Shown: in pieces, positions 1,158 to 12,877 of the stretch
Numbering within the stretch: the stretch's first letter is position 1
Layout of the letters: each line of letters opens with the position of its first letter
Assembly: GCA_024275315.1 (NCBI GenBank)
Contig: JAJRZK010000061.1
Span: 1-64,000 of the forward strand
Direction: 5' to 3'
DNA length: 64,000 bases
Source: Nitrospirota bacterium
GTDB taxonomy: Bacteria; Nitrospinota_A; UBA7883
Translations under genes and position numbers: made by a program
Notes under the pieces: model-generated
Databases searched by the model: none
Told to the model about the DNA's origin: nothing
What the model saw: only the letters and a program-made list of their open reading frames with translations

Positions 1158-2054
1158 ATGCCTGAATTTCGATTTTTCTTAATCACCATTTGTTGCGCCA
1201 TGGTGGCGTCCATAGTTGCTTTTCCAGCGGTTTCCTTTTCGATAACCCAACAGGAATACGCCGTAATTCTAAACCTTTCCGGCAAACAGCGGATGCTGAC
1301 CCAGAAAATGAGCAAGGAAATTTTGCTTATCGCAAAAGGGGTGGATGCGGACAAAAATCGGGAGAATCTAAAGAAAACAGCGGCGCTTTTTGACAAAACT
1401 CTGAAAGGGCTTATAAACGGTGATTCAGACCTTGGGCTCGTAAAAGCTGAAGACGAAAAAATTGTAAAAAGACTTGAGAAAGTGCAGAAACTCTGGACCG
1501 GATTCAAGCAGAACGTGGACGCCGTCCTGGGTGGAGACACTTCAAAGGCTATATTGGAAAAAGTCGCCAAGGATAACCTGCCTCTTCTGAAAAACATGAA
1601 CCGTTGCGTGAAAATGTTCGAGAACAACGCGAAAAAGGCGGGCGGCTCATCGTTGGGACCGGGAATGGCGGTGACCATTAACCTGTCCGGTAAACAGCGG
1701 ATGCTGACCCAAAAGATGACCAAGGAACTTTTGCTACTGGCTAACGGCGTGGAGCCGGATAGTAACAGGTTAAATCTGAAAGCGACCGCCTCTCTGTTCA
1801 ACCGCACATTAAAAGGGCTTAAGGACGGAGATAAAGATCTGGAGCTTCCGGGCACAAAAAACCCGGCCATACGGGACCAGCTGGACAAGGTGGAGGAGCT
1901 ATGGAAGGGTTATAAACCTTTAATTGACAAGGTGGTCGCCTCCTCTTCAAACGATGTGCCCCAGGCGGACTTGGAAGCCGCGGCCAAATTGAACCTGCCG
2001 CTTCTGAAGGAGATGAACAAGGCCGTCAAAATGTACGAGACGTCTATAAAATAA
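1158..2054 (+). CDS. Secreted protein with two tandem PilJ-type N-terminal domains
   Basis: 298 residues with a Sec-type signal peptide (hydrophobic 6-27, ending near AVSFS) and no further membrane segment, so it is expected in the periplasm. Two homologous modules follow, about residues 32-158 and 170-296. Each begins with NLSGKQRMLTQKM(S/T)KE and ends with LPLLK(N/E)MN(R/K)xVKM(F/Y)E; this is the PilJ_N module (type IV pili methyl-accepting chemotaxis transducer, N-terminal), related to NarX-type four-helix sensors. In the family this module is usually the extracytoplasmic part of a chemoreceptor; here it is a free protein lying 40 bp upstream of a chemoreceptor gene. I infer that it binds a ligand and passes it to, or shapes, the partner receptor. 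The start has an unusually strong RBS, GGGGAGGAAG at 1146-1155. Confidence 0.8.
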   Translation: MPEFRFFLITICCAMVASIVAFPAVSFSITQQEYAVILNLSGKQRMLTQKMSKEILLIAKGVDADKNRENLKKTAALFDKTLKGLINGDSDLGLVKAEDEKIVKRLEKVQKLWTGFKQNVDAVLGGDTSKAILEKVAKDNLPLLKNMNRCVKMFENNAKKAGGSSLGPGMAVTINLSGKQRMLTQKMTKELLLLANGVEPDSNRLNLKATASLFNRTLKGLKDGDKDLELPGTKNPAIRDQLDKVEELWKGYKPLIDKVVASSSNDVPQADLEAAAKLNLPLLKEMNKAVKMYETSIK

Positions 2055-4657: not shown

Positions 4658-5062
4658 ATGAGCGAAGAAGAGCAAAACGGGGGGAGTTTCTCTTTCAGGG
4701 ACAAGCGCCGGAATTTTGACGAAGATTCCAACGAAACCGGCGATAGTGAGCGGACCGGGCAGGATTCACCTGAATCTCCCGACACTGCCAGCGACCACCC
4801 CGGGCAAGAGACACCTTCCGCGCCTCCCATAAATTTCTCAACGTTCGTCCTGTCGCTGGCGTCCAGCGCCGCCTACCATATGGGCGGGTTCCAGGACCCT
4901 GTCTCGGGCAAGACATCGGTCAACCTGGACCTTGCCAAGCAATCGATCGACATACTGGCTATGCTGGAGGAGAAAACCAGGGGCAACCTTTCCGATGAGG
5001 AGAAGAACCTGATTTCCCACTCCCTGTATGACCTGCGGATGAAGTTTGTCGATCTGAAATAA
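4658..5062 (+). CDS. DUF1844 domain protein
   Basis: 134 residues. The first 60 are low-complexity, acidic and Ser/Pro-rich (many D, E, S, T) and probably disordered. Residues about 62-134 are the DUF1844 domain: INFSTFVLSLASSAAYHMG, then DLAKQSIDILAMLEEKT and LRMKFVDL. DUF1844 is widespread in Deltaproteobacteria, Nitrospirae, Acidobacteria and relatives; its function is unknown. It ends one base before the stop of the convergent DinB-fold gene. Confidence 0.85.
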   Translation: MSEEEQNGGSFSFRDKRRNFDEDSNETGDSERTGQDSPESPDTASDHPGQETPSAPPINFSTFVLSLASSAAYHMGGFQDPVSGKTSVNLDLAKQSIDILAMLEEKTRGNLSDEEKNLISHSLYDLRMKFVDLK

Positions 5063-5524
5063 TCATTCGCTGAAAAAAATAAAATCCATCAACGGGGCCG
5101 TTCTTTCCCCTCCCCCCGACAGAATCGCGACCTGGCCACGATGATAAGAGGCGTGGATCAACGCCGATGTCAAAATATCCGAGGCGGATTTGCGCACTGT
5201 CTGCCCCTTGATGTTAAGATAAGAAATCTCGGCGCTTAAGGTTTCATCGGTAGCGGCATCCAGGTACCTGGTCCAATGCCCGCTGACAGACTCCAACTCT
5301 TCTTTAAACATTTCCGGCGCCATGTCGGGCCATAGCACAGGCTCCGGAGCTTTTTCTCCCAGCTCCAGCATGGAGAGCCACATTTTATCCGCGCCGATCA
5401 TATGGGCGAAGATTTTTGCGGCGCGAGGGTTGACCGGATCGCCGGACAGCATAAACTCCAGAATTTTCCTGTTGCTTTGCGAGTTGTATCTGAACAACCT
5501 GGCAAAATCCGTTTCAATGGTCAT
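5063..5524 (-). CDS. DinB-fold (YfiT/DinB) putative metal-dependent protein
   Basis: 153 residues, a four-helix-bundle DinB-like protein. The three expected metal ligands are H41 (AHMIG) and H124 and H128 (IHASYHRGQ), the last pair in the family's typical HxxxH(R/Q)GQ motif. Members include bacillithiol and mycothiol S-transferases and uncharacterised damage-inducible proteins; no thiol or substrate can be assigned here. It may be transcribed with the activase gene 51 bp upstream. Confidence 0.85.
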   Translation of the reverse strand: MTIETDFARLFRYNSQSNRKILEFMLSGDPVNPRAAKIFAHMIGADKMWLSMLELGEKAPEPVLWPDMAPEMFKEELESVSGHWTRYLDAATDETLSAEISYLNIKGQTVRKSASDILTSALIHASYHRGQVAILSGGGERTAPLMDFIFFSE

Positions 5525-12371: not shown

Positions 12372-12419
12372 GTCTGATATTGTGTACTTATTCCAGACAT
12401 AATTGACATTATATCAGAC
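12372..12419. promoter_or_regulatory. Inverted repeat GTCTGATAT...ATATCAGAC, candidate enhancer or operator site
   Basis: Nine-base arms at 12372-12380 and 12411-12419 are exact inverse copies, 30 bp apart. They lie 90-137 bp upstream of the predicted sigma-54 start, the normal distance for an enhancer-binding activator. A consensus -35 TTGACA also lies at 12366-12371 with a poor -10 (TATTCC, 12389-12394), so the repeat may instead be an operator on a weak sigma-70 promoter. Confidence 0.4.
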
Positions 12420-12423
12420 AGAA

Positions 12424-12482: not shown

Positions 12483-12498
12483 TGGCACAAAGGTTGCT
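12483..12498 (+). promoter_or_regulatory. Sigma-54 (RpoN) -24/-12 promoter
   Basis: TGGCAC at 12483-12488 and TTGCT at 12494-12498, with GG (12484-12485) and GC (12496-12497) exactly 12 bp apart. This matches the TGGCAC-N5-TTGC(A/T) consensus at every invariant base. It is preceded by a T run. The start should be G12509 or A12510. It is the only such match I found in the window. Confidence 0.8.
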
Positions 12499-12508
12499 TC
12501 TACGTATT

Positions 12509-12626
12509 GACAGTAGCGCAAATACAGTTATGAGGCTCCGAGCTTCCTTCCTCCCCCATAAAAGGCTCGGGGCTTTGTAAAGTAACCCGTGGAAGCTCCC
12601 CCCCCTCGCTTCCACGGGTTTTTTTA
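12509..12626 (+). ncRNA. Predicted sigma-54-dependent small RNA with two C/U-rich hairpin loops
   Basis: From the predicted start to a strong terminator there are about 117 nt with no convincing gene. Hairpin 1 pairs 12533-12543 with 12565-12575 (11 bp including two G-U pairs); its 21-nt loop carries TTCCTTCCTCCCCC. Hairpin 2 is the terminator (12584-12620), a perfect 13-bp stem with loop TCCCCCCCCTC. Two single-stranded anti-Shine-Dalgarno tracts in loops are the hallmark of trans-acting RNAs such as the CCUCCUCCC-loop RNAs of alphaproteobacteria. A 16-codon frame (ATG 12530 to TAA 12578-12580) overlaps hairpin 1 but has no ribosome site. The next gene is convergent, so a mRNA leader is unlikely. 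Confidence 0.65.
12584..12625 (+). terminator. Strong intrinsic terminator of the small RNA
   Basis: AACCCGTGGAAGC (12584-12596) pairs perfectly with GCTTCCACGGGTT (12608-12620), followed by a seven-T run (12619-12625). The loop is TCCCCCCCCTC. Confidence 0.9.
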
Positions 12627-12637
12627 TTGTCGTCAGG

Positions 12638-12877
12638 TTAATCTGAATCGGCCTTTTTCACGGCATCCGGACTTGCAAAAATATCCATGGCAATGGCTAT
12701 GGTGGAATAGACACCCAGGGTTCCGAATGTGGCAAGAAAAGCCAAGCCATACGGGTTGGAAAAAAGCTCGTCTGCAGGATTGTTTGACAACAGGCCAACA
12801 CACCCGGCTATACCAAGCGCCATGCCTGCAATTCGGAAAAGATACGCGTCTAATGTCGCCCAAGCGCTGTCTTTCAT
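12638..12877 (-). CDS. Small two-helix membrane protein, unknown
   Basis: 79 residues with two hydrophobic segments (about 15-31 and 43-66) separated by a short NNPADELFSNPYG loop and a charged C-terminus. No family is recognised. On the minus strand TTGACA (12915-12910), a 16-nt spacer and TATACC (12893-12888) form a good promoter whose start would fall only a few bases before the ATG, so the mRNA may be nearly leaderless. It converges on the small RNA terminator. Confidence 0.6.
   Translation of the reverse strand: MKDSAWATLDAYLFRIAGMALGIAGCVGLLSNNPADELFSNPYGLAFLATFGTLGVYSTIAIAMDIFASPDAVKKADSD

Follow-up and report, generated by a model that had tools for sequence, protein, structure and literature searches.

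A 64,000-nt stretch of DNA from a Nitrospirota bacterium of class UBA7883 (positions 1 to 64,000 of contig JAJRZK010000061.1; hereafter the window) carries, at positions 12483-12626, a candidate gene for a small RNA (sRNA). We are highly confident that this element represents a real, new and order-wide family of sigma-54-dependent sRNA. As judged by comparison of its copies across genomes, it is a structured RNA under selection, with a conserved promoter, conserved upstream dyads and a conserved loop composition. A scan with Rfam 15 returned no family at gathering score for the RNA, and a literature search returned no report of this RNA family. The element is laid out in the window as follows.

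12483-12498, + strand: sigma-54 promoter with -24/-12 boxes TGGCAC-N5-TTGCT (TGGCACAAAGGTTGCT), from comparison across copies.
12509-12626, + strand: predicted small RNA transcript of ~117 nt, from the fold and the covariance model, with its inferred start ~12 nt 3' of the -12 box.
12528-12580, + strand: hairpin 1, an 18-bp stem (12528-12545 / 12563-12580), from the fold and covariation.
12546-12562, + strand: loop of hairpin 1, CCTTCCTCCCCCATAAA, 17 nt, C/U-rich and anti-Shine-Dalgarno-like, from the fold.
12584-12625, + strand: hairpin 2, an intrinsic terminator with a 13-bp stem beginning CCCGTGGAAG (12584-12596 / 12608-12620) followed by a T-run, from the fold and covariation.
12597-12607, + strand: loop of hairpin 2, TCCCCCCCCTC, 11 nt, C-rich, from the fold.

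When folded from position 12509, the window RNA formed both hairpins at -47.5 kcal/mol, and it matched the covariance model of the family (R1) at 12524-12623 (+) with 93.5 bits. An earlier, sequence-only reading of this locus had proposed an RpoN promoter followed by about 117 nt that contain no supported gene and end in a strong terminator. Each of these elements was recovered: the promoter boxes are present and are kept in most copies from relatives, and the terminator stem and T-run lie where they had been placed. The two C/U-rich loops are likewise present and conserved, although the first, described as a 21-nt loop, measures 17 nt in the present fold, a small difference. A terminator scanner made no call at hairpin 2, since it permits only loops of 3-8 nt. 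A protein-coding explanation was rejected, as the longest ATG frame on the RNA strand ranged from 0 to 19 codons among the copies checked and was not conserved; frames of 68 and 96 codons listed at the locus span the hairpins and have no support. Neither a lack of conservation nor an overlapping conserved protein frame, which the sequence-only reading had named as grounds for giving it up, was found.

The pattern TGGCRY-N5-TTGCW has a single match within the window and 24 matches genome-wide, compared with 6 for the reversed pattern. Since 0.30 matches are expected by chance per 64 kb, the promoter match alone is weak, and the case rests on conservation across genomes. The same expectation lends some plausibility to the view that promoter-like and terminator-like sequences adjoin here by coincidence, but this is refuted by the order-wide conservation, the covariation and the positionally fixed promoter described below, and its probability is negligible.

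The element was found in all 12 of the examined genomes of the Genome Taxonomy Database order, in a total of 16 copies, and the layout was identical in every aligned copy. When 40 related genomes were searched by DNA sequence alone, six of them also proved to have it, one in two tandem copies; all six belong to the same family or order. A first covariance model was built from eight copies and a second from 15. Searching with the first model recovered 15 copies, spread over 11 of the order's 12 genomes, and no match in the remaining genomes of the class or phylum; the 15-copy model gave none in ~277 genomes outside the order, under stricter filters with which weak matches may be lost. The copy in the twelfth genome, G010, was missed by the model and was located by synteny beside the homologue of a gene that converges on the RNA in the window. 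This copy has a CGGCACACCCGTTGCA promoter with an exact GACA-N4-TGTC dyad at -66; its RNA forms two hairpins with C-rich loops and scored 44.3 bits with model filters off. Because it was found by synteny, it tests the model independently of its construction. According to a 2024 survey, UBA7883 is an uncultured class with sulfur-oxidation genes (PMC10839748). None of the viral contigs carried the terminator pattern; the pattern with a C-run loop also matched a contig of a Rhodospirillaceae metagenome-assembled genome (MAG), L024, at 1316-1346 (-).

Covariation supported both stems. Across the 15 copies, 22 of 32 pairs showed double-sided changes, a number as high as this being seen in 0 of 500 shuffles; these fell in 14 of the 19 modelled pairs of hairpin 1 and 8 of the 13 of hairpin 2. 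Of the cells, 91.4% were paired, as compared with a shuffled mean of 83.6% and with 27-52% for slid structures, and none of the five covariation measures was reached by any shuffle. While this alignment was fitted to the structure, an eight-copy MAFFT alignment that was not fitted agreed with it (92.5% paired, 12 double-sided pairs).

Outside the stems, conservation is concentrated in the loops, and the leaders are divergent among copies. The G content was 3% in loop 1 and 2% in loop 2, compared with 25% in the leader. CCC was present in both loops of all 16 copies, CCTCC occurred within loop 1 in 12 of 16, and in 15 of 16 the calculated energy of the duplex between loop 1 and a canonical Shine-Dalgarno sequence lay between -6.8 and -12.5 kcal/mol.

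Conservation extends to the promoter. The -24/-12 promoter was intact in 13 of the 15 copies found by the model, lying 24-54 nt 5' of the RNA model, and the GG/GC core was retained in 14 of 16 copies, that found by synteny included. Among the 13 intact promoters TGGC and TGC were invariant and the adjacent columns varied. All 12 genomes of the order encode sigma-54 enhancer-binding proteins, ~20 in a typical genome, and RpoN was found in 11 of them.

Upstream of the promoter, dyads were found at about -65 to -100 relative to the -24 box, those of the GACA-N4-TGTC form at a distance of 65-97 bp. With at most one mismatch, GACA-N4-TGTC occurred in 8 of 15 copies (1.05 expected) and TGTC-N9-GACA, the commoner reading in family f1, in 9 of 15 (0.9 expected); exact GACA-N4-TGTC was present in 4 of 15 (0.05 expected). 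Paired dyads stand 21 bp apart in three genomes (G008, G009 and G011), and the same spacing separates the two sites of the window, which are themselves imperfect. A distance of 21 bp corresponds to two helical turns, as is common for the sites of activators. We infer that dyads of the GACA-N4-TGTC type are binding sites of a sigma-54 activator. The corresponding features of the window are as follows.

12383-12420, + strand: putative enhancer, comprising TGTC-N9-GACA-like sites TGTACTTATTCCAGACA (12383-12399) and TGACATTATATCAGACA (12404-12420), 21 bp apart, from dyad conservation.
12396-12407, + strand: GACATAATTGAC, between the two enhancer sites, of the TGTC-N9-GACA / GACA-N4-TGTC type.

An attempt to identify the activator through a shared enhancer was not successful: tandem dyads with one mismatch occurred at just four places in the 12 genomes, two of which were promoters of the RNA itself. 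The others lay inside a coding frame and in the intergenic region before ferritin-like genes (L098, ~1501-1533, on G011:C224). The latter, a tandem GACA-N4-TGTC pair without a sigma-54 promoter, may be bound by the same regulator as well. A clear dyad together with -24/-12 boxes was seen upstream of none of the activator genes inspected, and the other sigma-54 promoters of the genome, among them those of flagellar-type and pilin genes, had no such dyads. The sequence-only reading had proposed that RpoN control would link nitrogen, motility or envelope signals to translation; these searches found no matching activator. L103, a GAF-type activator as judged by eye, has a TGTC-N9-GACA site at -246. 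On G000:C15 (L078-L081), two sigma-54-like sites each occur twice in opposite orientation (18748/48950 and 29721/37977); these opposed duplicates imply that a large segment is duplicated in inverted orientation or that the contig is misassembled.

In the window the RNA converges on a neighboring gene.

12638-12877, - strand: gene for a 79-aa small membrane-protein-like product, convergent with and outside the RNA (linked neighbor).

This product had no Pfam or NCBIfam match above cut-off. Its gene was found in 22 of the 24 genomes of the phylum that were examined, as a single copy in nearly all; the product is a core protein of unknown function. At 10 of the 11 primary loci the gene and the RNA are neighbors, and at 8 of the 11 the gene's stop falls 0-15 nt from the RNA terminator; in genus g3 the RNA-gene pair stands on contigs without any other window gene nearby. 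Such linkage would be expected if the RNA were a cis-acting antisense or terminator element that mainly controls the convergent gene through their overlap at the shared terminator hairpin. However, three g3 copies (G002, G005c and G006c) are not adjacent to the gene, the gene occurs elsewhere in the class with no copy of the RNA, and the covarying hairpin 1 and its loop lie outside the overlap. The sister group f6 was searched for the same RNA beside the gene's homologue; the gene was there and the RNA was not found. Since paralogs of the RNA sit elsewhere and sister genomes carry the gene alone, the linkage is strong yet not required for the RNA, and control confined to the neighbor in cis is improbable.

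The additional copies bear on this point. Genus g3 has tandem copies of the RNA, each with its own promoter and its own terminator, and all three g3 genomes have a further copy (c) at an unrelated locus.

L061 5022-5117, L062 4955-5049 and L063 2723-2817, - strand: unlinked g3 paralog of the RNA, with loop CCCTCCTTTCCCC; the -24 box is degraded in one of the three.

The unlinked and tandem paralogs favor action in trans. The loop of the unlinked paralog contains CCTCCTTTC, which resembles the usual 3' tail of 16S rRNA. Attenuators, too, have a promoter and a terminator, and the element might on that account be read as the structured 5' leader or the attenuator of a gene that follows it. This reading is nonetheless very improbable, as the gene that follows is encoded by the opposite strand at the primary loci, tandem copies are each complete with promoter and terminator, and the contexts of the paralogs differ.

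Hfq (PF17209) was not found in any of the 23 genomes of the class, in a search that detected it in Escherichia coli, Bacillus subtilis and three other control genomes. Stable hairpins, G-poor C/U loops and the lack of a detectable Hfq in the class are features to be expected of an Hfq-independent antisense RNA directed against G-rich sites. The most common G-rich site is the Shine-Dalgarno sequence. We propose that the element encodes a free-standing RNA of ~117 nt that acts in trans. At its promoter, RNA polymerase with sigma-54 would wait at the -24/-12 boxes and fire only once a signalled enhancer-binding protein, sitting on GACA-N4-TGTC-type dyads ~65-100 bp upstream, acts on it. The RNA would then form two very stable hairpins with no need of Hfq, each displaying a G-poor, C/U-rich loop, and these loops would pair with the G-rich Shine-Dalgarno regions of selected mRNAs and so repress their translation. 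Transcription, loop pairing with Shine-Dalgarno sites and the repression of translation are predictions from sequence. Pairing of the loops with Shine-Dalgarno sites is the likeliest mechanism, and we hold it, together with the rest of this explanation, with moderate confidence.

Several observations weigh against this explanation. In 4 of the 16 copies (G004, G007, G010 and G011), loop 1 contains no CCTCC; a strict anti-Shine-Dalgarno core is therefore not shared by all. The -24/-12 boxes are degraded in two copies, G004 and G006c, and the rpoN search gave no match in G008, an 87% complete MAG. Extended complements of loop 1 in its own genome numbered 11 sites as compared with 12 for the control, none of them at a plausible start codon; this search covers extended complements, and short Shine-Dalgarno pairing is not resolvable by it without an annotated genome. 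For the pairing with Shine-Dalgarno sequences suggested by the sequence-only reading, this naive target search yielded nothing above control. At the degraded locus of G004, the smallest genome of its family (L068, ~4961-5130), the -24/-12 boxes are lost and a sigma-70-like TTGCAA-17-TGTTAT can be discerned by eye, which makes a switch to a sigma-70-like promoter possible. Loss of rpoN as the cause was rejected, as G004 has rpoN.

The absence of an enriched mRNA complement in the target search would also suit a protein-binding sponge, in which the RNA titrates a protein that recognizes C/U-rich single strands (for example, of the cold-shock or KH type), as GlmY decoys RapZ. Both loops keep a pyrimidine and C-run composition rather than one fixed word, and repeated loops per RNA and repeated copies per genome are suited to titration. 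Nevertheless, the data suggest no protein partner, C-runs with few other features suit G-rich targets at least equally well, and CCTCC is retained in 12 of the 16 first loops. We regard the sponge as less likely, though a serious rival, and retain the pairing of the loops with G-rich ribosome-binding sites as the preferred explanation.

The family appears to be new and is present in every examined genome of an order of uncultured bacteria to which a role in sulfur cycling has been ascribed. A dedicated sigma-54 promoter under enhancer control is joined in it to anti-Shine-Dalgarno-like loops, features that the closest precedents found show separately or in part, and both designs occur here in organisms in which Hfq, the usual sRNA chaperone, was not found. 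Since promoter, dyads, stems and loops are conserved, each step of the model can be tested separately. Tentatively, and with more doubt than assurance, we suggest that this is an order-defining RNA family of Nitrospinota without detected Hfq, in which two loops mimic the 16S anti-Shine-Dalgarno sequence and one sigma-54 activator, in response to a single signal, broadly reprograms translation at G-rich ribosome-binding sites without Hfq.

The family was compared with known systems. Among the sigma-54-dependent sRNAs of Gammaproteobacteria are GlmY/GlmZ, Qrr, CrcZ and NrsZ. Both glmY and glmZ are independent sRNA genes that have a -24/-12 promoter (PMC3844500), and the QseF/GlrR sites at glmY have the form TGTC-N10-GACA (PMC8745638). 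The element resembles them in its -24/-12 promoter and putative upstream activator sites, and its TGTC-N9-GACA / GACA-N4-TGTC dyads are reminiscent of those at glmY, although the spacing differs. The GlmY/GlmZ models of Rfam gave no match even at E 10; there is no recognizable relation in sequence or structure, and dependence on RapZ or Hfq cannot be assumed here. CJnc230 (FlmE) of Campylobacter jejuni is an RpoN-dependent sRNA of ~98 nt with a single-stranded anti-Shine-Dalgarno stretch that represses mRNAs at the ribosome-binding site (PMC11187230). The element resembles it in its predicted RpoN dependence and in an anti-Shine-Dalgarno-like single strand, with no evidence of a relation in sequence.

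Of the Rfam families, ar14/NfeR1 (RF02344) of Alphaproteobacteria gave the highest, though weak, score with the window copy (33.0 bits over the whole model; gathering score, 58.8); it was not listed among the matches of the other copies scanned. NfeR1 is reported to silence mRNAs through CCUCCUCCC loops that pair with translation initiation regions; its activator is LsrB and its repressor NtrC, and, as far as that report goes, it is not driven from a -24/-12 promoter (PMC10746234). Both families have several hairpins with conserved pyrimidine anti-Shine-Dalgarno loops on stems of variable sequence. In contrast to ar14/NfeR1, which has three main hairpins with an identical, ultraconserved CCUCCUCCC in each, the present RNA has two, with variable CU/C-run loops. 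Other sub-threshold matches of single copies were ErsA/Pseudomon-1 (RF01719; 34.2 bits with G003), LhrC (RF00616; the g3 tandem copies) and TfoR (RF02100). Several of these RNAs are known for C/U-rich loops that act on ribosome-binding sites, and the resemblance runs through such loops and the terminator; all of the matches are below gathering score and inconsistent between copies. Membership in a known Rfam family was rejected on these grounds. Because the weak matches are sub-threshold and differ from copy to copy, we read them as a sign of shared design rather than shared descent.
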